The notes below the pieces were generated by a model. That model was given only the letters and a program-made list of their open reading frames with translations, was not told the DNA's origin and did not search any database. From Roseateles hydrophilus (lineage in GTDB: Bacteria; Pseudomonadota; Gammaproteobacteria; Burkholderiales; Burkholderiaceae_C), in contig NZ_JAPPUY010000004.1 of NCBI RefSeq assembly GCF_026712245.1, forward strand, positions 124,001 to 188,000: DNA of 64,000 bases. Reading direction: 5' to 3'. Of this stretch, positions 8,883-54,816 are shown piece by piece; the stretch's first letter is position 1, and each line of letters opens with the position of its first letter. A program made the translations under genes and the position numbers.

Positions 8883-9500
8883 ATGGGAGCCCGTCCTTCG
8901 ATCCGAGAGCAGATGCAGCGCGTCCGAGAGGACGCCATCGTCACCGCCGTGAACCGCCTGCTGGCCCGCAAGGGCTACGACGCGATGACGGTGGACGAGG
9001 TGGCCGCCGAGGCCGGGCTGTCCAAGGCCAGCCTGTACAAGCTGTTCACGTCCAAGGAAGAGCTGGCCGGCGCGGCGATGGTGGGCGTGCTGGACCGGGC
9101 GCTGGCCTTCATCGACGAACTGCGCGCCCGCGCCGAGGCCGGGCCCGTGACGCCGCTGGAGCAACTCAAGGCCGTGACCGGCTGGGCCATGCTGACGCAG
9201 CTGGAAGGCGAGATGCCGTCGCTGCCGGCGCAGAACTCCAGCCTCAGCGCCGCGCTGCAGGCCAACGACGCCTACATGGACCGGCTGATCTCGCTGAGCA
9301 ACCGCCTCAGCATCTGGATTGCCGAGGCCCAGACCAGCGGCCAGATCAAGGCCGATGTGCCCGCCGAGCTGGTGCTCTACACGCTGTTCGCCCGCGCCTG
9401 CGACCCGGTCGTCGCGCTGCTGAAGGACTCGGGGCAGTACACCCGCGCGCAGATCATCGAGTGGGTGAACAGCACGACGTTCGACGGGCTGGCGGGCTGA
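8883..9500 (+). CDS. TetR/AcrR family transcriptional regulator
   Basis: A 205-residue one-domain-plus-ligand-domain repressor. The helix-turn-helix is MTVDEVAAEAGLSKASLYKL at about residues 36-55, inside the typical N-terminal three-helix bundle; the rest is the helical ligand and dimer domain. It diverges from the FAD oxidoreductase operon and is separated by a 121-base region with two palindromes, so it probably represses that operon and itself. The start ATG at 8883 follows directly after the shared regulatory region. The ligand is unknown. Confidence 0.92.
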   Translation: MGARPSIREQMQRVREDAIVTAVNRLLARKGYDAMTVDEVAAEAGLSKASLYKLFTSKEELAGAAMVGVLDRALAFIDELRARAEAGPVTPLEQLKAVTGWAMLTQLEGEMPSLPAQNSSLSAALQANDAYMDRLISLSNRLSIWIAEAQTSGQIKADVPAELVLYTLFARACDPVVALLKDSGQYTRAQIIEWVNSTTFDGLAG

Positions 9501-9506
9501 CGGTCG

Positions 9507-11774
9507 TCAGTCCTCTTCCAGCGGCGCCAGCAGCAGGTTCAGCTCGGGCGCGCTGAACTTGGTCAGCAGCGAGCCGTCGTCGCTGCCCAGCAGGCCATCG
9601 GCCAGCGCCTTCTTGCGCGCCTGCAGCTCCAGCATGCGCTCCTCGATGCTGCCCTGGGCCACCAGCTGGTAGGCAAACACCGGCTGGTCCTGCCCGATGC
9701 GGTGCGCCCGCGCGCTGGCCTGGGCCTGCACGGCCGGGTTCCACCAGGGGTCCACGTGGATGACGGTGTCGGCCGCCGTCAGGTTCAGCCCCACGCCGCC
9801 GGCCTTCAGGCTGGCCAGCAGCACCGGCACCTCGCGCGCCTGGAAGCGCCGCACGATGTCGCCGCGCTGTGACGCGGGCGTGTCGCCCGTCAGCCGCAGG
9901 TGCGGCACGGGCACCTCGGCGGCGATCAGGTCCAGCATCTCCGTGAACTGCGAGAACACCAGCACACGCCGGCCTTGCGCGACGAGGTCGGGCAGGTGCT
10001 CGCGCAGCCATTCCAGCTTGGCGCGCTCGGTGTGCGGCGCCATCTCCACGCCCTTGACGAGGCGCGGGTCGCAGCACACCTGGCGCAGCTTCAGCATCGC
10101 GTCCAGCACGCTGATGAGGCTGGTGGGCGTGAAGCCGTCGCGCTGCAGGATGCGGCGCACCATGTGGTCGGCGGCGACGCGCACGCTCTCGTACAGCTGC
10201 TTTTGCTGGCCGACGAGCGGCACGCGCTTCACCAGCTCGGTCAGCGGCGGCAGCTCGGTGGCCACCTCGGTCTTGAGGCGGCGCAGGATGAAGGGCCGCA
10301 CGCGCGCCGCCAGCAGCCGCGCGCGCGGGCCGTCGCGGTTGACCTCGATGGGCTTGCGCCAGTGGCGCCCGAACGTGCGCGAGTCGCCCAGGAAGCCGGG
10401 CATCAGCAGGTCGAACAGTGACCACAGCTCGCCCAGGTGGTTCTCCAGCGGCGTGCCAGTCAGCGCCAGCAGGTGACGCGCGTCCAGGCGGCGCAGCGCG
10501 CGCGCCGCACGGGCCTGCGCGTTCTTCACCGACTGGGCTTCGTCCAGGATGAGCAGGTGCCAGGGCCGGGCCGACAGCGCGCGCAGGTCGCGCCAGACGA
10601 GGTTGTAGGTCGTCAGCACGACATCGGCGCCGCTGAGGTCGAGCGCCGCACGGTCGGCCCCGTGCCAGGTCTTGACCGCCAGTCCTGGCGCGATGCGCGC
10701 GGCCTCCTGCTGCCAGTTGAACAGCAGCGACGTGGGCACGACGACCAGCGCCGGGCGGTCCAGCCGGCCGGCCTGCTTCTCGGTCCACACATGGGCCAGC
10801 GCCTGCGCCGTCTTGCCCAGGCCCATGTCGTCGGCCAGGATGCCGGCGAGGTTCTGTGCACGCAGGTATTGCAGCCAGGCCAGCCCGTGGAGTTGGTAGG
10901 GCCTCAGTTGCAGGCCCAGCCCGGGTGGCTGCTCGAATGCGGTCGGCGCGCCCGCTGCCAGCAGCCGCCGGCCCAGCGCCTTCAGGCCCGCATCGCCATG
11001 GATCTGCCAGCGGCCGCGCGACTCGTCCTCGATGACACGGAGGCGATCCGCATCCCATTCATTCAGCTTGAGCGGCTTGCCCTTGTCCAGCTCGGCGGGC
11101 TTGAGCAGGTCCAGCAGCGCCAGCATCATGGCCTTCAGCGGCGCAGCAGCGGCGTGATAGCGCCGCCCGCCCGGCGCGCGCAGCGACACGATGGCGTCGT
11201 CCTCGATCGCGGCGATGGCCACGGCGTCCAGCCAGCGCTTGTCGCGGCGCAGCAGGTTGGCGATCAAGGGTGCCAGGTCCAGCGTCTTGCCGTCGACCTC
11301 CATGCCCAGGCTGACGAGCCAGGCACCCGTGCGGCGCGCCAGCGCCAGGCCTTCGACGCGGCGGCTGGGCTTGGGCGCCTCTTGCTCGGCGTCTTCCGTC
11401 AGCCCCAGTTGCCAGCCGCTGACGAACTGGCTGTGGTGGGCGAAGCCGGGCTCGGTCGTGACCTGCCAGCCCTGGGCCTGCAGCTCGGGCACGGCCTCGG
11501 CGTGGAAGTCACCGAAGAAGTCTTCCTGCGGCGTGGTCCAGAGCGACTCGCCGCCCAACGGCAGCGGCGATCCGCGCCACTGCAGCAGCGCGGGGTCGAG
11601 GGCGATGAGGCCCTGTTTGATGAGGATTTGCTCGGCGTCGGCATCCCGCCGCGCCAGCGTCGCCACCGTCACCTGTTCGCCCCGCGGGCCCAGTGAGCCA
11701 CGCGGACGCAGGCCCAACAGGCCATCGCCGCGCGTCAGCGTGCGCAGCGTGAGGTGGGGTGGAGCAACAGACAT
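9507..11774 (-). CDS. SNF2/HepA-type DEAD/DEAH helicase
   Basis: A 755-residue superfamily 2 ATPase. The first RecA lobe has Walker A ADDMGLGKTAQALA (around residue 315) and the DEAQ box in LLILDEAQSVKNA. The second lobe carries LKAGGVGLNLTAADTVIHVD and motif VI ARAHRIGQDQPV. The N-terminal 280 residues are a family-specific accessory region. Such proteins translocate on double-stranded DNA or remodel RNA polymerase/DNA complexes. It converges tail-to-tail with tetR, 6 bases apart. It is a stand-alone gene with no restriction or defence partner nearby, so a housekeeping role is more likely than defence. Confidence 0.92.
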   Translation of the reverse strand: MSVAPPHLTLRTLTRGDGLLGLRPRGSLGPRGEQVTVATLARRDADAEQILIKQGLIALDPALLQWRGSPLPLGGESLWTTPQEDFFGDFHAEAVPELQAQGWQVTTEPGFAHHSQFVSGWQLGLTEDAEQEAPKPSRRVEGLALARRTGAWLVSLGMEVDGKTLDLAPLIANLLRRDKRWLDAVAIAAIEDDAIVSLRAPGGRRYHAAAAPLKAMMLALLDLLKPAELDKGKPLKLNEWDADRLRVIEDESRGRWQIHGDAGLKALGRRLLAAGAPTAFEQPPGLGLQLRPYQLHGLAWLQYLRAQNLAGILADDMGLGKTAQALAHVWTEKQAGRLDRPALVVVPTSLLFNWQQEAARIAPGLAVKTWHGADRAALDLSGADVVLTTYNLVWRDLRALSARPWHLLILDEAQSVKNAQARAARALRRLDARHLLALTGTPLENHLGELWSLFDLLMPGFLGDSRTFGRHWRKPIEVNRDGPRARLLAARVRPFILRRLKTEVATELPPLTELVKRVPLVGQQKQLYESVRVAADHMVRRILQRDGFTPTSLISVLDAMLKLRQVCCDPRLVKGVEMAPHTERAKLEWLREHLPDLVAQGRRVLVFSQFTEMLDLIAAEVPVPHLRLTGDTPASQRGDIVRRFQAREVPVLLASLKAGGVGLNLTAADTVIHVDPWWNPAVQAQASARAHRIGQDQPVFAYQLVAQGSIEERMLELQARKKALADGLLGSDDGSLLTKFSAPELNLLLAPLEED

Positions 11775-41406: not shown

Positions 41407-41496
41407 GGAAGCGTGGGAGAGTGGTTTAATCCAACGGTCTTGAAAACCGTCGAAGGTGTGAGCCTTCCGTGAGTTCGAATCTCACCGCTTCCGCCA
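41407..41496 (+). tRNA. tRNA-Ser (UGA)
   Basis: A complete 90-nt class II tRNA. Acceptor GGAAGCG pairs with CGCTTCC, the anticodon loop CTTGAAA gives anticodon TGA, a long variable arm follows, the T loop reads TTCGAAT, and CCA is encoded. It is the integration site of the 13.3 kb island: its last 27 bases are repeated at 54790-54816. The tRNA stays intact, but its natural downstream terminator is now at 54832. Confidence 0.97.
41470..41496. repeat. Left attachment site (attL) within tRNA-Ser
   Basis: The 27 bases from T41470 to A41496 (T arm, acceptor end and CCA) recur exactly at 54790-54816. Integration into a tRNA 3' end with its restoration is the standard result of tyrosine-integrase insertion. 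Confidence 0.92.
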
Positions 41497-41592: not shown

Positions 41593-43287
41593 ATGAAGAA
41601 GACTATGGCAAAGCCTCTCGGAGTGCAGCCGGCCACCAAGGGCCGCGCACCGTCAATTCGCATCTGCGTCCCTCTGGACCTCCAGGCCCTCTACGGTGGC
41701 CGCAAGGACTTCCGTATCAGCCTGGGAAGGGGGGCCGACTCCGCAGCCGTCAAGCTCAAGTCCGCCCTACTTCGTGCCCAGTACGAAGCGGAGTTTGCGC
41801 AGAAGCGAGCCGCGATGCTCGCCGGACGGACGCTGACGCCCATCACCGCGATGCCTACAGAGGTGGCCCAGGCCATCGCCCGCGAGGTGTACGCCGCCGG
41901 GATGGCCCAGGATGACGACCTGAGGGAATCGCCCGAAGGAGTCCAGGCCCTCCGCGAGGTGGCGGCCGTGACCCGCAGCGCCCTCGGCATACCCCAGCGT
42001 CAACCCATCGCGGCAGATGGCCTGACTGCCGGTGAAGCCGCTGCGCTGGCTGGCCTGAATGCGCTTGCTGACGGTGCCGCTGCTACTGACCTCGCCCGCC
42101 GCAAGACCTCCCGCGTGCTGGTCGCCGCCGACGATGCGGCCCGCCGCCTGGGTCTGGACGTGGACTGGTCCGATGACAGCAGCCAGCAGGCCCTCCGCCT
42201 CAGCCTGGAGCAACACCGGCAAGCCTGGAAGGACCGCAGTGCACGCGACCGGGGCGAAGTTGTGCCCACTCCTACGCGTCAAACTGGGGTGACGCTTCCC
42301 AAGCAACACACCCTCCGCGATGTGCTGAAGCTGTGGGAGGCCACCAACCTACCCGGGCGTACTCTGGTCAGCAAGGCCAAGAGCGGCATTGCGCTGGTGG
42401 ACGAGTGCCTGGGCAAGCTGCCCTTGACTGCCTACACGAAGCCCCAGGGGGCCACCGTCGTGGCCCACTTCCTCGCCACCTGCAAGACGCAGAAGACGGC
42501 CCTGGACAAGTTCAACGCCGTGAAGAGCCTGCTGAACTACGCCGCTGGGAAACAGGGCTGGATCGACTACAACCCCTGGGAGGCCCACACCGTCATCGTG
42601 AAGAAGAGCCGCAAGCGGGTTGACCTGTCCCCCGAGGCACTCACCAAGCTCTTCACTTCGCCCCTGTTCCAGCGGTACGAGTTGCCGGAGTCCACCAGTG
42701 CAGGCGGGGCGGCAGCGTACTGGGTGCCTTTGCTGGGACTCTACACAGGCGCTCGCCAGTCCGAGCTGTGCCAGCTCCGCATCGAGGATTTGACTGACCA
42801 CCCCGTCCTGGGCCTCAGCATCAACGTCCTGGCCGATGCTGGCGACGAAGACGAAGACAGCCCGGAGACCACGACCAAGGGCGACAGCGGGCGCAGGCGC
42901 ACCCCGATCCACTCAGACCTAATCACCCTGGGCTTCGCCGACTACATCAGGGACACCAAAGCAGCCGGCCACACACGCCTGTTCCCAGACGTGAAGTACC
43001 CCGAGGGAGAGCCTGCCGGGACGAACTTCACAAAGTGGTTCAGCAGCTACCGCAAGGCGCAGGGAGTGGGGCGCCGTTATCAGGACTTCCACGCCTTCAG
43101 GCACACGTCCCGAACTCGACTGACCGATGCAGGAGTGGAGGGCGTGATTTCCGATGCCCTGCTGGGGCACACAAACGGGCAGTCCACCGGGCGGAAGGTC
43201 TACGACCACTCACTGGCGACCTTACGGGGCAACTTGGAGAAACTGAAGTTCCCCGAGTTGGGCCTAGTCCGCTGCTACGGGCGCTGA
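41593..43287 (+). CDS. Tyrosine-type site-specific integrase
   Basis: A 564-residue recombinase. The catalytic residues are visible: Arg388 in GLYTGARQSELCQL, His500 and Arg503 in FHAFRHTSRTRL, His526 in LLGHTNG and nucleophile Tyr537 in GRKVYDHS. The N-terminal 200 residues are a long helical region as in other phage/island integrases, with a core-binding domain before the catalytic part. The gene starts 96 bases inside the island and reads inward. ATG 41593 or 41605 could be the start. It should catalyse integration and excision at tRNA-Ser. Confidence 0.93.
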   Translation: MKKTMAKPLGVQPATKGRAPSIRICVPLDLQALYGGRKDFRISLGRGADSAAVKLKSALLRAQYEAEFAQKRAAMLAGRTLTPITAMPTEVAQAIAREVYAAGMAQDDDLRESPEGVQALREVAAVTRSALGIPQRQPIAADGLTAGEAAALAGLNALADGAAATDLARRKTSRVLVAADDAARRLGLDVDWSDDSSQQALRLSLEQHRQAWKDRSARDRGEVVPTPTRQTGVTLPKQHTLRDVLKLWEATNLPGRTLVSKAKSGIALVDECLGKLPLTAYTKPQGATVVAHFLATCKTQKTALDKFNAVKSLLNYAAGKQGWIDYNPWEAHTVIVKKSRKRVDLSPEALTKLFTSPLFQRYELPESTSAGGAAAYWVPLLGLYTGARQSELCQLRIEDLTDHPVLGLSINVLADAGDEDEDSPETTTKGDSGRRRTPIHSDLITLGFADYIRDTKAAGHTRLFPDVKYPEGEPAGTNFTKWFSSYRKAQGVGRRYQDFHAFRHTSRTRLTDAGVEGVISDALLGHTNGQSTGRKVYDHSLATLRGNLEKLKFPELGLVRCYGR

Positions 43288-44165: not shown

Positions 44166-44747
44166 TCAGGCGGTGGCGCCGTCCCGCACGGCAATGATGG
44201 TGGCCCGGCTGACCTCGTAACACCGGGCCAGCTCAGACACCGACTTGCCGGCGGCCAGCGCATCCCGGATGGCGGACCGTTCTACCTCGGTAGTCTTCGC
44301 GGGCCTTCCCAGCTTTGTCCCTTCTGCCTTCGCCCTGGCGAGCCCCGCCTGGGTCCGCTCGATGATGAGGGCCCGCTCGAAGTCCGCCACAGCGGCCAGC
44401 ATCTTGACCATCAACTCGCCGGCCGGGCTAGTCAGGTCCAGATTGCCGAGTTGGAGGACCACCAGCCGGATGCCTTCCCTGGTGAATCGCTCGACCGTCT
44501 GCTGAACGTCGATGGAGTCCCGCCCCAGCCGGTCCAGCTTCGTCACGACGAGCGTGTCCCCCTTCTCTAGCCGCTCCAGCAGCTTGACGAAGCCAGGACG
44601 CTGGCTGGCCGGCACCGATCCAGAGACCTGTTCCTCGACAAACCGGCGTGGCTCTACCGCATAGCCGGCGGCAGCAATCTCCCCGCGCTGGTTCTCGGTC
44701 AGTTGCTCGACCGTGGACACGCGGGCATAGGCAAAGACTCGGGACAT
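44166..44747 (-). CDS. Serine recombinase (resolvase/invertase family)
   Basis: A 193-residue small serine recombinase: nucleophile Ser11 in FAYARVSTVEQ, the LDRLGRDSIDVQQTVERF segment, and a C-terminal helix-turn-helix (LAAGKSVSELARCYEVSRAT). I chose the ATG at 44747 because GAGG lies 7-8 bases before it. Such enzymes resolve dimers or invert DNA within an element. No inverted-repeat pair flanking a gene is visible nearby, so resolvase is more likely than invertase. Confidence 0.9.
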   Translation of the reverse strand: MSRVFAYARVSTVEQLTENQRGEIAAAGYAVEPRRFVEEQVSGSVPASQRPGFVKLLERLEKGDTLVVTKLDRLGRDSIDVQQTVERFTREGIRLVVLQLGNLDLTSPAGELMVKMLAAVADFERALIIERTQAGLARAKAEGTKLGRPAKTTEVERSAIRDALAAGKSVSELARCYEVSRATIIAVRDGATA

Positions 44748-44846
44748 GGACACCTCAAACTGTCGGAAAACGGTGTAAGTATCTCCAGCATGTTGAAAAG
44801 TGTCAATGGGCTATATTTTCGACATGAATGCGGAGGGTGTTGGAAA

Positions 44847-45261
44847 TTGACCGATTCCCTACACCCCCTTCGCCACCGAGCTGCGCGTCATCGACCGTGA
44901 CGGCGCCCCCTGGTTCATCGCCAAGGACTTGCTGCTGGCCCTGGACATCGGCGGCAGCCTGAGCGCAGGCCCTTCGCCCTACCTGAAGCACCTCGGCGAC
45001 CACGAGAAGGGCCTAGTTGCTGTCTTGACCCCCCGTGGCGGCGAGCAGCGGGTCCTGGCCGTCAACGAGTCCGGCTTCTACAAGCTGGTCCTGAAGTCCC
45101 GCAAGCCCGAGGCCCGCAAGTTCCAAGACTGGGTGACTGGCGTGGTCCTGCCGTCCATCCGCAAGGACGGCGGCTACATCCTGGGCCGAATCGGCATGCC
45201 GGATAGGGACTTAACCGCTGCTGGGCCTGCCGGAGGGCGTCCAAACCCCGACCTTAGCTAG
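44847..45261 (+). pseudogene. Bro-N (phage antirepressor) domain gene, frameshifted and truncated
   Basis: A TTG start at 44847 with GGAGG ten bases upstream begins LTDSLHP, but the frame then breaks at a run of five Cs (44864-44868). The continuation FATELRVIDRDGAPWFIAK...FYKLVLKSRKPEARKFQDWV...VLPSIRKDGGYILG is in the next frame, a clear Bro-N domain. After GGYILG the sequence diverges and stops at 45261, while a second copy of the IRKDGGYILG coding segment (followed by GEEKVATKSLG) appears at 45303. So the gene is broken by one extra C and a local duplication. Sequencing error at the C run is possible. Confidence 0.7.
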
Positions 45262-45301
45262 CCGCCCCACCGGTCCACTTACTGTTCTCTAGGGTAGCCG
45301 G
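45253..45301. repeat. 49-bp direct repeat, copy 1
   Basis: Starts CTTAGCTAGCCGCCCCACCG and ends GGGTAGCCGG; it matches 45417-45465 with a handful of substitutions. The pair brackets the duplicated end of the Bro-N gene, suggesting the local rearrangement used this repeat. Confidence 0.75.
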
Positions 45302-45416
45302 ACATCCGCAAGGACGGTGGCTACATCCTGGGCGAAGAGAAGGTGGCTACCAAATCGCTAGGTGCATCAACGAGATGGCGCCCGCAACAGGCGCCAAACG
45401 CGGCCAATACCCTTTC

Positions 45417-45465
45417 CTTAGCCAGCCGCCCCGCCGGTCCACTTACTGTTCCCTTGGGTGGCCGG
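45417..45465. repeat. 49-bp direct repeat, copy 2
   Basis: Second copy of the repeat at 45253-45301 (CTTAGCCAGCCGCCCCGCCG ... GGGTGGCCGG). The segments lie 164 bases apart. No transposase is associated. Confidence 0.75.
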
Positions 45466-46185: not shown

Positions 46186-46713
46186 ATGACCAAGAAACGA
46201 CCTTTCCAGCCCCGGGAGCGCACAACGCTGACCCTCGGCCGCACCCACACCCGCCACAACACCATGCTGGACTTCCCGGCCTGGGTGGCGCTGGCCTATG
46301 CGCAGGCCCAAGCCAAGCACCTGGGGGGCCTCAAGGTGCCATCCGCTGCCATCGTCCGCCGTGCGCTGCTGGTCTATGCGCTGCACCTCCAGCGTGAGGC
46401 AGCCGCCGAGGACGCTAGCCGGCGCCTGACCGAATGGCGAGCCATCAAGGCAGCCACGGCAGGCGGCATAGCGGGCGACGCCCTGCACGGCACAGGCACT
46501 GAAGCAGAAGCCCAGGCACAGGCCGAAGGGCGCCTCCAGGCCCTCGCGCTGATCCCGGAAGGGCAACCCCTGCCCAGCTTCATCGAAACGCTTGTAGGCC
46601 CCTCCGTGGTCGCTGCCCGGGCCGCCGCACGTGCCGAACTGGACCGCCGCCTAGATGCGATGCCCGCCTTCCATAACGCGGAGCCCGTCCGCATCGCCAA
46701 CCCCAACACCTAA
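46186..46713 (+). CDS. Hypothetical protein, helical
   Basis: A 175-residue, mostly alpha-helical protein (FPAWVALAYAQAQAKHLGG; IVRRALLVYALHLQREAA; AAAEDASRRLTEWRAIKAAT). It starts MTKKRPFQPRERTT, a basic N-terminus. No domain recognised. The next gene, a helix-turn-helix protein, starts 14 bases after its stop, so the two are probably co-transcribed. A DNA-binding or regulatory role is possible but unproven. Confidence 0.6.
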   Translation: MTKKRPFQPRERTTLTLGRTHTRHNTMLDFPAWVALAYAQAQAKHLGGLKVPSAAIVRRALLVYALHLQREAAAEDASRRLTEWRAIKAATAGGIAGDALHGTGTEAEAQAQAEGRLQALALIPEGQPLPSFIETLVGPSVVAARAAARAELDRRLDAMPAFHNAEPVRIANPNT

Positions 46714-46726
46714 CCCCCTCGCCACC

Positions 46727-47125
46727 ATGACCACGCTCACTCTCTCCATTCCCTCCGCCCTGACCATGCCTCAAGTCCCGACCGCCGCTGCGCTTGTTCG
46801 CGTGAAGGGCACCCGCGCCAAGTACACGCCCCAGCAGAAGCTCCAGGCCCTTCTGATGGCCGAGCAGGGCCGGCCGCAGGCAGCCATTGCCCGCGAGCTG
46901 GGCATCCTTCCGAACACGGTCTATAGCTGGGTGCACGCTGCACGCGAAGCCCTGAAAGCCAGCCAGCGCGACATGGCGGCCCAGCCCGATGCCCCGGTGG
47001 GCACCTTGCGTGCTGACCTGCTGGCCTTGAGGGGTTCACTGAGTCGCCGCCTGGATGCGCTGGAGCGCGAACGCGAAACCATCCTGAAGACCATCGCCAG
47101 CGTCCGCGATGCGCTGGACCTGTAA
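46727..47125 (+). CDS. Helix-turn-helix protein (IS3-orfA-like DNA-binding domain)
   Basis: A 132-residue protein with a helix-turn-helix of the IS3/Tnp helix type, YTPQQKLQALLMAEQGRPQA followed by IARELGILPNTVYSWVHAAR (residues 26-65), and a C-terminal coiled coil (LSRRLDALERERETILKTI). No catalytic transposase frame follows, so it is a stand-alone DNA-binding protein. It converges with the DinG-HNH gene, with 96 bases between, and might regulate island genes. The ATG 46727 is preferred over an upstream in-frame start overlapping the previous gene. Confidence 0.65.
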   Translation: MTTLTLSIPSALTMPQVPTAAALVRVKGTRAKYTPQQKLQALLMAEQGRPQAAIARELGILPNTVYSWVHAAREALKASQRDMAAQPDAPVGTLRADLLALRGSLSRRLDALERERETILKTIASVRDALDL

Positions 47126-47221: not shown

Positions 47222-48793
47222 TCAGTCCAATTCAGCACCCGAGGTGGCACGGCTCACCCCGCGTGCCTGCTGCCTCAACTGGTGATGCGCCTCGGCGTGG
47301 TGGTTCTTGCACAGCACCGTCACATCCTTCAGGGTGGTCTTGCGGACACCTTCGGCAATCGGGTCCAGGTGGTGCACGTCCAGCAAGTGCTTCTGCGTGA
47401 TGTCGCACCCTTCCCAGCGGCAACGCGTCCCGTAGTGCTTGAGTGCCGCATTGCGGAGGTTGGGGTCACGCTCCGCCTTGCTCAAGACCACCTCGGCCCG
47501 CTGCCCCTCGTCAAACTCCGTGCGGGACCCCCACGCCTCCAGAAACCGAGCGGGCACGAACTGGCCCACCTTGGATGCCCGCTGGTCCAGCATGATGATG
47601 GTGCATGCCGCATCGGGGGACCTCAGCCCGCGCCCAATCACCTGGCGAAGGCGGCGCTGGGCCATCGTGCGGGCATCGAGGTAGCTGCTCACCACCTCAC
47701 CATCGAGGACCACGGGCTGGCCGAAAGGGACGGTGGGCACAACGATGCTGCGCCAAGGCACAGGCACATCCAGACCAGCCCACGCGCCAGCCTTGATGAG
47801 TACGTCATCCCGCGCCCCGACGGCAGCAAGAAGGCGGGCGGTCAACTCATGTGAGGTGGTCGCCACCAGTGTGGGCCTGGGCGCGTCTTCAATGGCCTCG
47901 ACGGTGGCGTCGAACCACTCCTGGGTGCCGACCTCCAGCGCATGCAGTTGGAACTGAAGATGACCATGCTGCCGAGGCTCAATGGCGCAGGACAGCCGGC
48001 TTATCTCGCCGATGCCCATCACGTTGCGGAAGTTGTCGAACCGCTCCGAGACCGTCAGCGTTGCGCTCACAAAGGCCACCCCTGCCCTGTTCGCAACCTT
48101 GGTCAACAAGCGGCCAGGAAGCCGATGGGACAGCGCCACCGTGCCGTCATCCTCGACCCCGACCCGCTGCCAAGGCTGGGGGTCCTCCAGAACCTCCAGC
48201 ATGACCCGTGCGGCGGCCCGCATTTCTGGGTCAATGACCCGGGCTGGCGCGTCAGCCACCCGCCTCAGCGTGTCGGGGACATCCGTGAACGCAATCCCAG
48301 CCTCACTCAAGGCAGCCCGCGTGATGCGCATGTCTGACTGAAGCGCCGCCATCTCTGGCAGTTGGTCGGCCTCATCGAAGACCAGGTAGTCCCGCCCCAG
48401 GGCCCCACAGTATTCGCCTCGCAAACGCTGGTCGATGATGACGGCCGCCGAGGTGCAGACCATCACCCGCGCTGCCTGTGCTGCTGCCCGCCTGGCCTCG
48501 TAATCTGCGCGCTTGTCAAACATCGCCGCCGGCCTGAAGTCCACCACATCCAAGCCAACGGCCGCGAGGTCTGCACTGGCCAGCAGTTGGTCGATGAGTT
48601 GGTGCGTGGGCAACACCAAGGCCACCCGGTGCCCGCTCATGACGACGGCGTGCAGGTAGGCGCGGGTCTTGCCGATGCCCGTCCCGCCCTCCAGCAGCAA
48701 CGGGGCATCCTGCAGTGCCATGTGCTTGCCAAGCAAGGCTGCAAAGTCGGCCTGCTCGGTCGAACGGAACTTCACAACGCTCCCAGCGGTCAT
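47222..48793 (-). CDS. csf4: CasDinG (Csf4-like) helicase fused to C-terminal HNH nuclease
   Basis: A 523-residue protein. The helicase part is DinG/XPD-like: Walker A GGTGIGKT at residues 36-43, DEAD at 140-143 in YLVFDEADQLPEM, and motif VI RRLRQVIGRGLRSPDAA near residue 385. After residue 455 comes an HNH nuclease: Cys458 and Cys463 (CRWEGC), the active-site DVHHLDP at 472-478, and CKNHH at 495-499. Type IV-A CRISPR helicases unwind DNA beside the crRNA complex; the added HNH should let it cut. The start overlaps the upstream gene by ATGA. This is the last gene of the csf operon. Confidence 0.88.
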   Translation of the reverse strand: MTAGSVVKFRSTEQADFAALLGKHMALQDAPLLLEGGTGIGKTRAYLHAVVMSGHRVALVLPTHQLIDQLLASADLAAVGLDVVDFRPAAMFDKRADYEARRAAAQAARVMVCTSAAVIIDQRLRGEYCGALGRDYLVFDEADQLPEMAALQSDMRITRAALSEAGIAFTDVPDTLRRVADAPARVIDPEMRAAARVMLEVLEDPQPWQRVGVEDDGTVALSHRLPGRLLTKVANRAGVAFVSATLTVSERFDNFRNVMGIGEISRLSCAIEPRQHGHLQFQLHALEVGTQEWFDATVEAIEDAPRPTLVATTSHELTARLLAAVGARDDVLIKAGAWAGLDVPVPWRSIVVPTVPFGQPVVLDGEVVSSYLDARTMAQRRLRQVIGRGLRSPDAACTIIMLDQRASKVGQFVPARFLEAWGSRTEFDEGQRAEVVLSKAERDPNLRNAALKHYGTRCRWEGCDITQKHLLDVHHLDPIAEGVRKTTLKDVTVLCKNHHAEAHHQLRQQARGVSRATSGAELD

Positions 48794-49290
48794 GCCGTCA
48801 CTTGGCTCCGTGCTGCACCACTGGCCTTGGCCCGGTCCGCCTTGAGTCTCCACAGGACCTTGTGGGTGCGGCTGCCGGTTGCAGGGTCGGGCTCGGCAGT
48901 CCAGTCGAACACCTCCATGCCTTTCGGGCCGCAGATCACCACATGCCGCAGGTCCAAGGTTCTCGCCAGGTTGCCGGCCGGAATGGGCTTCTTGTCGAAC
49001 TCCAGCAACATCACCGGCCTGCCATCGAAGGCCTCCAGGCAATCCAGCCATGCCTCGTACCGCGTGGCTTCGCTGTAGGTGATGCCCTCGGCGGCCAGCT
49101 TGAATTGCATCGTGGCGCCCGCCTCCGTCAGCACGGCCCATCCTGAGGCGATCCGCTGAGGAGGTCCCCCCTTCGCCATGCGGTGGCCGCTTGACAGGGC
49201 CCGCTGCGCATCGCCCAGTGCATCACCGCTGGGCTCGACCAGGCGACAGCCGAGCAGGCGATTGAAAAAGTCCAGGGACGACTCGGGCAT
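48790..49290 (-). CDS. Type IV CRISPR-associated protein, candidate Csf1 (large-subunit position)
   Basis: A 166-residue protein between csf3 and the DinG-HNH gene (ATGA overlap with the latter). By elimination it occupies the Csf1/Cas8-like slot, but I cannot recognise Csf1 motifs and it lacks the paired-Cys zinc finger of classical Csf1. Visible features: LDFFNRLLGCRLVEP, YEAWLDCLEAFDGRPVMLLEF, LDLRHVVICGPKGMEVF. I chose ATG 49290 because GAGG lies five to six bases before it; ATG 49308 would overlap csf3 by 11 bases. It could instead be a small subunit or a new component. Confidence 0.6.
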   Translation of the reverse strand: MPESSLDFFNRLLGCRLVEPSGDALGDAQRALSSGHRMAKGGPPQRIASGWAVLTEAGATMQFKLAAEGITYSEATRYEAWLDCLEAFDGRPVMLLEFDKKPIPAGNLARTLDLRHVVICGPKGMEVFDWTAEPDPATGSRTHKVLWRLKADRAKASGAARSQVTA

Positions 49291-49297
49291 CGTGACC

Positions 49298-49909
49298 TCA
49301 GCAGACATAGCAGGGGGCCTTGTGTCGGGGGTCCCAGTACGCAGGACGCCAGCAAACATCGGCCAGCACATGCTTGTGCTCGCCCTTCCAGAGCCACGCC
49401 GGCACAGGCCGCAATGGCTCATCGGCGTAACCGACCACACCATCGAGGTCCCCATCCGTGATGCTCCACTGGAGGACCTCGGTGCTGCGCTTCTTGCCAA
49501 TCATGGGGAGTGCCTCCAGCAGCGGCCAAATGGCATCGGGGTCCCCCTCGCAACTCCAGCTCACTTGGTCCGCATCGAAGGCGCGGTAGCTGCTCAGGAT
49601 GTTGTCGGGCATGTTGGAGAACGCCCGATGGACGTTGCCGGCCGCGTTCTTCTTGAGCCAGGGAAACAACTCTGGCCCGGGTCGCATGCCCTGCACGATG
49701 GCTCGGCGGCCCACCTGAAGCGGCTCCAACAACGCCGCGCTGGCGTGGTACATGCCCCCCGTGCGGGCCAGAGGCAGCCGCTCATGGGCCTGCTCCAGGT
49801 CTTGGGTCTGTGCGAACACAGCCGCTGCCAGAAGCCCGTCGAACGTCATGTAGCCCCCGCCGGAAATCAACGGCCCCTTGATGCGGGCCGTCACGGTCAA
49901 GGTTTTCAA
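49298..49909 (-). CDS. csf3: Type IV CRISPR Csf3 (Cas5-like)
   Basis: A 203-residue RAMP-fold protein. The N-terminal TVTARIKGPLISGG strand, YMTFDGLLAAAVF, and the later WPLLEALPMIGKKRSTEVLQW are typical of Csf3, the Cas5-like subunit that caps the 5' end of the crRNA in the type IV complex. It starts with TTG at 49909, preceded by AAGGA at 8 bases. That start overlaps (TTGA) the stop of an open frame running through the whole CRISPR array. The C-terminus has CYVC. Assignment rests on motifs and on csf2 and DinG in the same operon. Confidence 0.75.
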   Translation of the reverse strand: MKTLTVTARIKGPLISGGGYMTFDGLLAAAVFAQTQDLEQAHERLPLARTGGMYHASAALLEPLQVGRRAIVQGMRPGPELFPWLKKNAAGNVHRAFSNMPDNILSSYRAFDADQVSWSCEGDPDAIWPLLEALPMIGKKRSTEVLQWSITDGDLDGVVGYADEPLRPVPAWLWKGEHKHVLADVCWRPAYWDPRHKAPCYVC

Positions 49910-49952
49910 TGCAATGTCCTTCCAAGGTCATGGGGCCGGCGCTCCAGTTGGT

Positions 49953-51308
49953 CCCCTAGCAACCACCCATCTACCGGGTGGCTTGAACAAGCACGACCAA
50001 CTGGACGAGCGACAGCCGGTTCCAGGAGCCACCCATCTACCGGGTGGCTTGAACAGTCCCGCCAGGCTTGGCACGCCGGATACCGTTCCAGGAGCCACGC
50101 ATCTACCCGGTGGCTTGAACCAGCTGGGAACGGCAGTTCTCGGTCAAGGAGTTCCAGGAGCCACCCATCTACCGGGTGGCTTGAACAGGCGAGGGGATGA
50201 CGACGCTGGCCTGCTTGTTCTAGGAGCCACCCACATACCGGGTGGCTTGAACGTTGAACCCGGCACATTCCCGCTGGCTCATGTTCCAGGAACCACCCAT
50301 CTACCGGGTGGCTTGAACCGGCTCCGACGCCCACTACACGCCTGGCCCGTTCCAGGAGCCACCCATCTACCGGGTGGCTTGAACGCGGCGCCTGGGTGCG
50401 CCCCGAGTTCCCCAGTTCCAGGAACCACCCATCTACCGGGTGGCTTGAACGTGGCTTCACAGCCGTTGATGCTGGCACTGGTTCCAGGAACCACCCATCT
50501 ACCGGGTGGCTTGAACGTCGACGCAGCGCAGGTGTGGGGGCATTCCGTTCCAGGAGCCACCCATCTACCGGGTGGCTTGAACTGACGCGGCCGGCTACGT
50601 GGCGAAGTACATGTTCCAGGAGCCACCCATCTACCGGGTGGCTTGAACGGAAGAACCTGTCAGCCCGAAAGAGCGGTCGTTCCAGGAGCCACCCGTCTAC
50701 CGGGTGGCTTGAACCGACGGCGTGATTGGCCCGCAGACGATCACGTTCCAGGAGCCACCCATCTACCGGGTGGCTTGAACCCCGCTCCAGTGCTCGTAAC
50801 TCTTGGTCTGGTTCCAGGAGCCACCCATCTACCAGGTGGCTTGAACCGGTGCAATGGACAGCGGCGGCACCAACACGTTCCAGGAGCCACCCATCTACCG
50901 GGTGGCTTGAACGCCGCTGACATCGCTGACGCCCAGCTCTGGGTTCCAGGAACCACCCATCTACCGGGTGGCTTGAACTGGCCTGGTGGGCTACTTCAGC
51001 GCCGTCGGGTTCCAGGAACCACCCATCTACCGGGTGGCTTGAACCAAGGCCGCGGCGCGCTTTGGCACCGACTAGTTCCAGGAACCACCCATCTACCGGG
51101 TGGCTTGAACCTGCTGGCTCTGCGCCCACGGGGCCGACGAGTTCCAGGAACCACCCATCTACCGGGTGGCTTGAACGGCTACGACCGAATGCACCTCGCG
51201 TCTTTGGTTCCAGGAACCACCCATCTACCGGGTGGCTTGAACCGGGCCGCCGTCGTTGACGGGTGCAGGCTGGTTCCAGGAACCACCCATCTACCGGGTG
51301 GCTTGAAC
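49953..51308 (-). CRISPR. CRISPR array, 21 repeats of 36 bp and 20 spacers of 30 bp
   Basis: Repeats begin every 66 bases without exception, from 49953 to 51273. The minus-strand repeat begins GTTCAAGCCACCCGGTAGAT and ends GGGTGGYTCCTGGAAC. It folds into an 8-bp stem (AGCCACCC/GGGTGGCT) with a 7-base loop, leaving an 8-base CCTGGAAC as the expected 5' handle after Cas6 cleavage. The repeat at 49953 has a degenerate 3' part and marks the old end; the six repeats nearest csf2 (50943-51308) are identical, marking the leader end. Only 51 bases separate that end from csf2. Variants occur at 50085, 50217, 50679 and 50811. Confidence 0.97.
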
Positions 51309-51359
51309 TCGATAACTGCAAGTCCATGACGCTGTTCAGCTTTCAGGCAGTAGGGCAGT

Positions 51360-52304
51360 TCAAAAACGCTCCACCTGCATGGCCTGCCAGCCCTGTGTCG
51401 TGACGATGCTGTGCAAAGCGCCATCCACCCTCACGACAAACCGGCCGCCCACCTCCCCGCAGCCCCGCGCCACCTGGGCGCCCAGCAGGGGCCGCCTGGA
51501 CAATGCATCGAGGCCGACGAGCAGCAAATCCAGGTCTCGCTCGCGGGCACGCTCGACGACCAGCTTTCCCGACAGCGCCAGCCCTGAGGGCAGCGCATAG
51601 AACGTCGTGATGGTGCGGCTGCTGTTCTGCATGTCCCCCATTGCAGCCTTGGCACTGGCGGCCTTGGCTTCAGCTTCCGCGAGGGCGGCCTCCAGGTCTG
51701 CCGCGTCCGTACCTGCTTTTTTCGCCTTGCGCAACTTTGCCTTGATGCCACTGACCAGGGCCTCCGCAGCCGCACGGTCCGCGTTTGCATCGGAGCGGCC
51801 AAAGTAGGCCGCACGGTCACCGTCGGTCAGTGCCTCCAGCACGCCCTCCGTGTCCTCCAAGTCCTTGCGGGTGCCCGTGATGGGCTCTGGCAACACCGGA
51901 ACGGCGGGCATGAAGTTGGAGACCAGCAGGCGGCTCTTGAACGACCACCGGCCAAACAAATCGAGGATGGGGTCGGCTTCACGCTCCTTGGACATTTGCA
52001 GCAAGTCCACCTCTTCTTTGCCATCACCAGCCTGGCCCAGGATGTCGCTGTACGCCTGCTGCATCGTGGTGTTGCCAGGACCTCGGGCCTGCATGGCCGC
52101 CATCGACACGGCCCGCCGCAAGAACCCACGCACGGTGCTGGCGGGCAGGTATCCGGTGCGTCGGAGTTGGCCCGCATCGTCCAGGCCCACCGCAGTCACG
52201 GGGAAGTTCTTCCACTCGTTCTCCTGCTGCCCCTCGGCGACAGGCATGGCGATGGACAGCGGCGCCACCGTGGTGATGGTGGCCTCGATAAGGATGGTGT
52301 TCAT
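51360..52304 (-). CDS. csf2: Type IV CRISPR Csf2 (Cas7-like backbone protein)
   Basis: A 314-residue RAMP protein. YLPASTVRGFLRRA (residues 52-65) and DPILDLFGRW (111-120), followed by SRLLVSNFMPAVPV, are characteristic of Csf2/Cas7, which coats the crRNA spacer. Residues 195-235 form a predicted coiled-coil insertion (KAKKAGTDAADLEAALAEAE...), longer than I expect for the family. It starts at 52304 with a GGGAG ribosome site, 41 bases after the cas6-like gene; the CRISPR array follows directly downstream on the same strand. Confidence 0.82.
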   Translation of the reverse strand: MNTILIEATITTVAPLSIAMPVAEGQQENEWKNFPVTAVGLDDAGQLRRTGYLPASTVRGFLRRAVSMAAMQARGPGNTTMQQAYSDILGQAGDGKEEVDLLQMSKEREADPILDLFGRWSFKSRLLVSNFMPAVPVLPEPITGTRKDLEDTEGVLEALTDGDRAAYFGRSDANADRAAAEALVSGIKAKLRKAKKAGTDAADLEAALAEAEAKAASAKAAMGDMQNSSRTITTFYALPSGLALSGKLVVERARERDLDLLLVGLDALSRRPLLGAQVARGCGEVGGRFVVRVDGALHSIVTTQGWQAMQVERF

Positions 52305-52345
52305 AGCAGTCTCTCCCTCGTGATTGGCTTGTGGTCTGCCGCTGG

Positions 52346-52843
52346 TCACAGGCACAACATGCCCATACCGAACGCTTTGCCTGTGCTACCCACGCCTTGG
52401 CTCAGTGCCTCGCCAAAACGCTCGACATCCAGGACCTTCAGGACCCCGGTGAAATCGGTCTGGTCAATGGAGAACCTGCGCCCCGATGCCTCGATGAGGG
52501 CCATGCGGGCAGTGCAATGCACCGAGATGACCTCAAACCCGTGCAGTGCGGCCTTGCGGTCAAGCCAGGCATGCCGGCTGCGCCAGTCATTCGTCGGCCA
52601 GTACCGATGGCGCCCTTTGACCTTGGCACCAGTTGATGCCCTCAGCGTGAAGCCCAGGATGCTGCCGACCGAGAACTCCCGCAGGGGCACGGGGGTAGCG
52701 CCCTCCAGGGGCTCGGCGACACGGACCACCAGGTGGTCCCCTCGGTCAACGAACTGGGCCGCCTTGCCATCCAGGAGGCCGGCAACAGCTCGATGCACTG
52801 CGTAGCCAGTCAACGCTGCCGGCTTGGTGATGATGTGATCCAC
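52346..52843 (-). CDS. Cas6-like crRNA endoribonuclease (Cas6e/Csf5 type)
   Basis: A 165-residue RAMP protein ending in the glycine-rich loop GVGSTGKAFGMGMLCL, the hallmark of Cas6 proteins, close to the Cas6e form. His residues in the N-terminal part (MDHIITKPAALTGYAVHRAV) could be catalytic. It should cut the pre-crRNA at the base of the repeat hairpin. It starts with GTG at 52843, with AGGGAG at 6 bases, and is the first gene of the effector operon. Confidence 0.78.
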   Translation of the reverse strand: MDHIITKPAALTGYAVHRAVAGLLDGKAAQFVDRGDHLVVRVAEPLEGATPVPLREFSVGSILGFTLRASTGAKVKGRHRYWPTNDWRSRHAWLDRKAALHGFEVISVHCTARMALIEASGRRFSIDQTDFTGVLKVLDVERFGEALSQGVGSTGKAFGMGMLCL

Positions 52844-54789: not shown

Positions 54790-54816
54790 TGAGTTCGAAT
54801 CTCACCGCTTCCGCCA
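54790..54816. repeat. Right attachment site (attR)
   Basis: Exact copy of the last 27 bases of tRNA-Ser (41470-41496). Sequence to its left (TTGATTTCAAAGGGAAATTA) also resembles the sequence just inside attL, as expected for island ends. Confidence 0.92.

Follow-up and report, generated by a model that had tools for sequence, protein, structure and literature searches.

In the type IV-A1 and IV-A3 systems of clustered regularly interspaced short palindromic repeats (CRISPR) and Cas proteins, the CasDinG helicase is described as nuclease-free and targets are repressed (PMC11519345). A variant in which CasDinG carries an HNH nuclease domain is the closest described counterpart of the locus analyzed here, which lies in a 64,000-nt stretch of Roseateles hydrophilus DNA (contig NZ_JAPPUY010000004.1; hereafter the window). 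For the DinG-HNH type IV-A system of Sulfitobacter sp. JL08, PMC10910872 reports interference that depends on a protospacer-adjacent motif (PAM), together with directional cutting. All five proteins are needed, the CRISPR RNA (crRNA) has a 30-nt spacer, the PAM is 5′ YCN, and mutations of D139/E140 and H497/D514/H523 abolish activity. The same report proposes 5′-to-3′ movement of DinG along the non-target strand while both strands are cut. A second account, PMC11981726, adds H527, gives the first histidine as both 497 and 496, and describes a CasDinG-HNH subgroup with a chromosomal Nordella homologue. As far as these published accounts go, CasDinG-HNH is rare, with that of Sulfitobacter named as the one tested system and that of Nordella as the one additional homologue. 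In the 2025 classification this variant is IV-A2 (PMC12669027). Because PMC11519345 quotes an older scheme in which IV-A2 denotes a group lacking Cas8, the label should be given together with its source.

The window holds a minus-strand locus in the order cas6, csf2, CRISPR array, csf3, orfX and casDinG-HNH. Very probably this is a type IV-A CasDinG-HNH locus, in which a complex with Cas6-processed crRNA would guide DinG-HNH to cut its targets. Its parts are as follows.

52346..52843, minus strand: cas6 (Cas6e-like, type IV), 165 amino acids, GTG start, YAVH from residue 14, glycine-rich C-terminus
51360..52304, minus strand: csf2, the cas7 backbone subunit, ATG start near 52304
49953..51308, minus strand: CRISPR array, 20 repeats of 36 nt plus a decayed terminal repeat, 20 spacers
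49298..49909, minus strand: csf3 (cas5), TTG start, GGAAGG ahead of the start
48790..49290, minus strand: orfX, 166 amino acids, directly after csf3, in the probable csf1/cas8 place
47222..48793, minus strand: casDinG-HNH, 523 amino acids; helicase motifs Walker A GGTGIGKT from residue 36, DE at 140/141, SAT at 243 and GRGLR at 387; nuclease-end motifs C458/C463, DVHH from 472 (H474/H475), KDVT from 489 (D490) and CKNHHAEAHH from 495 (H498/H499, H503)

Two of these starts are choices between candidates. For csf2 we judge the ATG near 52304 a likelier start than the GTG listed at 52355, and the helicase most likely starts near 48793, inside a listed open reading frame (ORF) of 639 amino acids, rather than at 49141.

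Four of the five operon proteins match type IV profiles of PADLOC, namely Cas6 (typeIV_Cas6, E 4.1e-24), Csf2 (Csf2_0_IV, 1.4e-34), Csf3 (Csf3_0_IV, 1e-29) and DinG (Csf4_2_IVA1, 2.8e-66). Cas6 also matches Pfam PF08798 (1.8e-16), for which it is the sole match in the genome, and the histidine of its YAVH motif is presumably catalytic, as in Cas6e. Csf2 finds the PDB Csf2 chain 8rc2 (3e-8); a PDB sequence search with Csf3 gave no match. Against NCBIfam all scores stay below cut-off (Cas6e 3.1e-10, Csf2 2.6e-7, Csf3 0.0085, Csf4 1.7e-8), and we therefore regard the proteins as divergent members of these families. A CasDinG (Csf4) helicase in the operon, along with Cas6 and a CRISPR array, identifies the subtype as IV-A. 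A first-pass annotation, made from the sequence alone, had described this operon with an unassigned gene before the helicase, and every part of it is present on the minus strand; the profiles place csf2 and csf3 inside the type IV families. The annotation was also right to call the locus a type IV-A system with DinG fused to HNH and to place it on a tRNA island (profiles, motifs, tRNA-Ser, integrase and a 27-bp repeat agree), its Cys458/Cys463, DVHH and CKNHH are found in the 523-residue numbering, and the 2023 report of a DinG-HNH variant to which it referred exists (PMC10910872).

In a structure model of the fusion built from 22 sequences (mean predicted local distance difference test score, pLDDT, of 72) the first ~260 residues are good, and the seven best PDB matches in a fold search are CasDinG chains, with 8s35_M on top (E 3.8e-16); the sequence-only PDB search reached CasDinG at just 5e-4. 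An HNH domain at the C-terminal end is indicated by the motifs and by a protein of the same genome, which is 35% identical to DinG-HNH over residues 429-510 of a 525-residue query and itself passes the Pfam HNH cut-off (21.8 versus 21.4 bits). Paired by residue numbers rather than by alignment, D139/E140, H497/D514/H523 and H527 of JL08 correspond to D140/E141, H475/D490/H499 and H503 here, with the same Asp-to-His (9) and His-to-His (4) spacings in both proteins. Since the published Sulfitobacter relative does so and these residues are conserved, we infer that the protein would unwind and then cut DNA.

The array has a period of exactly 66, and its 20 spacers are all 30 nt long and all unique, the most similar pair having 15 of 30 bases in common. 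The first 20 repeats differ from the consensus at 0-4 positions and the 21st, on the csf3 side, at 5; because this last repeat is decayed, the leader end appears to lie on the csf2 side, where the csf2 stop is 51 nt from the first repeat. Folding of the repeat gives a hairpin whose stem is CCACCC/GGGTGG (z -2.43; of 200 shuffled versions, 5 fold equally well). A chance tandem repeat is ruled out by the fixed period, the hairpin, the unique spacers, the adjoining Cas6 and a phage match.

Four of the 20 spacers match phage-type genes.

50253..50282, minus strand: spacer 16, 30/30 to phage DNA methyltransferase genes, 5′ flank CCC
50583..50612, minus strand: spacer 11, 28/30 to a phage-type origin-nicking replication gene (phrog_91), flank GCG
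50187..50216, minus strand: spacer 17, 28/30 to a phage-type primase gene (phrog_2249), flank GCC
50385..50414, minus strand: spacer 14, 27/30 to the primase gene of spacer 17 (phrog_2249), flank GCG

A search of phage sequences returned 135 records matching the array at E up to 1, and the best 30 of these 135 all match spacer 16. It is identical over 30/30 to EBPR podovirus 2 and Burkholderia phage BcepC6B, and in all nine loci examined CCC precedes a protospacer with 29 or 30 of the 30 bases. As these targets share one conserved methyltransferase motif, they were counted as one. The targets of spacers 11, 14 and 17 came from 399 genomes of the family, in which the array has matches in seven genomes including its own (two candidates scored per genome in the matches shown). 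Pieces of spacers 2, 9 and 14 found no match in viral scans, and those of spacer 11 found one contig, from IMG/VR, that also carries its target gene. Over this search a simple composition model predicts ~0.2 chance matches at 27/30 or better and 0.008 at 28/30 or better; spacer 14 was retained, since its target gene is also matched by spacer 17. The four independent targets have C at position -2 in every case, and the JL08 PAM YCN fits the CCC of the perfect target.

Other candidates were set aside. Spacer 5 matches a 5′-nucleotidase-like gene (named by eye) at 27/30 with flank ACG, at the level where ~0.2 matches are expected by chance; its 28-nt matches to Streptomyces plasmids reach E 0.1 (16 of the 19 matches listed). 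Spacer 11 has another match, to a protease-like gene (also named by eye), at 27/30 and likewise at chance level; its flank is CGG, and counting it would break the rule of C at -2. Self-targeting was rejected: the best other BLAST matches in the own genome have E 0.26 or worse, and the closest candidate in the pieces examined (spacer 17, 24/30, flank GAG) was taken as chance.

Close relatives of the locus are scarce. Apart from its own genome we found none in 399 genomes of the order (1e-20), 399 of the family (1e-15) or 398 of the phylum (PDLC01731, 1e-40); in these searches at most three candidates were scored per genome in the matches shown, the samples overlap and counts include the own genome. 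Scans of genome contigs and viral contigs with the window DinG alone gave no match. When three plasmid CasDinG sequences were added to it, the genome-contig scan confirmed at least 54 loci, and the viral-contig scan with this four-sequence alignment yielded six distant helicases, none with an HNH domain by tblastn. On plasmids, protein searches with DinG and csf2 at 1e-5 found nothing; at E up to 10 there were 535 records, the best 40 of which are 21-27% identical (best E 0.003) and mostly annotated as helicases, and three distant plasmid matches that we examined are type IV loci.

Together, 63 loci (54 from the genome-contig scan, six viral and three plasmid stretches) were checked by tblastn at E 0.01, and both the HNH domain and orfX occur in only one, a Rubrivivax metagenome-assembled genome (MAG). 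Its DinG-HNH is 76% and its orfX 81-84% identical to the window proteins, and the contig starts ~180 nt ahead of orfX, within a stretch that by eye resembles the start of an IS3-type transposase. Nonsynonymous over synonymous rates between the two (dN/dS, NG86) are 0.179/1.558 for DinG and 0.136/1.36 for orfX (about 0.10). Thus orfX and dinG-HNH, the sole two genes compared, are under purifying selection. In the Rubrivivax contig a GTG-start gene, HEPN-like by eye, begins at the dinG-HNH stop (2223-2870); the window has no counterpart of it after dinG-HNH. One further locus, an alphaproteobacterial type IV-A locus that we refer to as L043, has a DinG without fused HNH and, on the same strand right after its array (8924-9549, 66-bp period), a separate HNH_2 gene (9059-10141; PF13391, 6.2e-8); this gene is a possible nuclease in trans, or it could be a chance neighbour.

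Read jointly, these observations suggest how the system may work. Cas6 would cut the array transcript at the CCACCC/GGGTGG hairpin, and the crRNA would be held by Csf2, Csf3 and orfX, the last as the putative Cas8/Csf1. An R-loop would form on targets carrying C at or near position -2, and DinG-HNH would load onto its displaced strand and move 5′ to 3′, the HNH domain cutting both strands as in the Sulfitobacter relative. Spacers would have been acquired elsewhere or in trans, since a Cas1 search that was positive in 9 of 14 controls found none in the own genome (98.66% complete).

Several observations, taken up here and in the next paragraph along with the rival explanations, weigh against this reading. 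The HNH fold is, together with the identity of orfX, among its least certain points. The C-terminal piece matches Pfam HNH PF01844 at E 0.08 and its Rubrivivax counterpart at 0.052, both below cut-off, and the C-terminal 126 amino acids alone have no match to PADLOC Csf4_2, on account of which the HNH domain may have been acquired separately. From residue ~406 on, the structure model is poor (mostly pLDDT <50) and the HNH fold is not resolved in it. The JL08 protein was compared by residue numbers alone, and the first His-to-Asp spacing is 15 here versus 17 by the numbers in PMC10910872. Given the weak Pfam score and the low confidence of linker and HNH in the model, it could be argued that the domain has decayed and that the system just represses its targets like ordinary CasDinG. 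We consider this highly improbable, as H475, D490, H499, H503, both cysteines and the CKNHH end are all identical in the 76%-identical Rubrivivax copy, and over the last 90 aligned DinG codons dN is 0.241 against a saturated dS of 4.43. The array might instead be a leftover, now out of use, on a dead island: the genome search turned up no cas1, a credible target was found for just 4 of the 20 spacers with three of those imperfect, and a promoter consensus scan found none. Such scans are weak in a G+C-rich genome, however, and the open genes, selection on the two genes compared, 20 well-kept repeats and a phage target that is matched at 30/30 and has a suitable flank make disuse very unlikely. 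On the PAM, pyrimidine stands at position -3 in one of the four independent targets, so that full YCN is met only by the perfect match; on the relatives, csf2 and csf3 were not detected in the Rubrivivax genome, although an empty answer from this search shows nothing.

What orfX is bears on the make-up of the complex. Searches of PADLOC, Pfam and NCBIfam give no match for the protein, its best PDB sequence match is an antibody (E 0.69, not credible), hhalign detects no similarity to Csf1, and Foldseek on its model (pLDDT 60) returned nothing at E 0.001 or better. Type IV-A3 effector chains among its fold matches (3 of the 50 listed; E 1.9, 4.3 and 5.3) were not counted. These results would suit an unrelated subunit or regulator in a Cas8-less complex, as would the published Cas8-less IV-A group, so far as PMC11519345 describes it, and the plasmid loci L006 and L008, where the csf1-position gene stands before cas6 and not after csf3. 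On the other hand, of the csf1-position genes in L043, L006 and L008 the identical PADLOC profiles detect only the last, so a profile miss says little. The place directly after csf3 is that of the csf1-position gene in L043 and of cas8 in the 'cas5, cas8' list given by PMC11981726, and the 81-84% identity to the Rubrivivax relative comes with dN/dS about 0.1. We therefore think a Cas8-less complex unlikely. Because this operon and that of JL08 both have five proteins, orfX is by its position most likely the Cas8/Csf1 part of the type IV-A effector.

The locus sits between two tRNA-derived repeats, with these features on the element.

41470..41496, plus strand: attachment-site (attL-like) copy, the 27-bp 3′ end of tRNA-Ser(TGA)
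41593..43287, plus strand: tyrosine-recombinase integrase, adjoining the tRNA gene (PF00589, 1.5e-9)
44166..44753, minus strand: serine resolvase/invertase, inside the element
54790..54816, plus strand: attR-like copy, identical 27 bp

A perfect 27-bp repeat of the tRNA-Ser(TGA) gene end thus bounds 13.3 kb. A PHROGs scan of ten ORFs of the element, nine of which were also compared with Pfam, turned up no transfer or replication family, other small ORFs lying outside the scan. The 'self-mobile' nature claimed by the first-pass annotation is therefore indicated by the integrase and att-like repeats only. Its view that a chromosomal home is unusual is weakened by the chromosomal Nordella homologue (PMC11981726) and by type IV loci reported in print from integrative conjugative elements. 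A search for the tRNA end in 11 genomes of the genus listed six matches outside the own genome, five of which were examined, in five genomes. All five sites share the left flank (CBS gene, ApaH, tRNA), and none has a match to the window integrase in the ~1.2 to 3.4 kb examined beyond the tRNA. Synteny does not extend to the right flank, and the exact empty junction was not seen. Because the first bases after tRNA-Ser differ in each of the five genomes, the site may be an integration hotspot. Inside the element, a phage anti-repressor or BRO-N fragment at 44929-45261 (phrog_130, PF02498) suggests a phage-derived or satellite-like past; near it, a 57-nt direct repeat, 86% identical, occupies 45245-45301 and 45409-45465. 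A helix-turn-helix (HTH) protein at 46655-47125, on the strand opposite the CRISPR operon, matches transposase-type HTH families and, weakly, terminase families.

As a natural DinG-HNH locus with a perfect phage spacer, the locus allows the antiphage role, the form of Cas8 and the PAM of cutting type IV systems to be tested, and it is a further example of type IV carried by a small integrated element. Type IV on chromosomal mobile elements was known; here the element has 13.3 kb and no transfer family in the ORFs scanned. The position of the array inside the effector operon appears to be novel, judging from gene order: the order here is cas6-csf2-array-csf3-orfX-dinG, and that listed for the JL08 type by PMC11981726 is cas5, cas8, cas6, cas7, array, dinG. 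One could go further and see a separate lineage of DNA-cutting type IV, carried by a phage-fighting tRNA element, in which orfX as a new small protein replaced Cas8 and Cas6 processing of the array inside the operon splits the message. That would be improbable in our judgment; if true, Cas6 cuts would separate a cas6-csf2 from a csf3-orfX-dinG-HNH message and so tie nuclease expression to crRNA processing.

Compared with type IV-A1 and IV-A3 (PDB 8s35, 8rfj), the locus shares Csf2, Csf3, Cas6, DinG and the DinG fold, but their DinG is longer and without nuclease (624 residues in 8s35_M, 606 in 8e2w, against about 430 before the HNH domain here). An engineered counterpart, the P. oleovorans IV-A1 CasDinG-HNH, produced large deletions in E. 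coli according to PMC12714560; there the C-terminal HNH fusion is artificial, whereas here it is natural. JL08 has in common with this locus the five-protein set (by position), a compact DinG with C-terminal HNH, 30-nt spacers and rarity. Unlike JL08, it has an unrecognised gene in the Cas8 place, a home in a tRNA-Ser element, and a nearest relative found in a Rubrivivax MAG and not in Rhodobacterales. The comparison confirms that the locus belongs to an already published kind, CasDinG-HNH (IV-A2 in the 2025 sense), from which it differs in gene order, in its element and in its Cas8-place gene.

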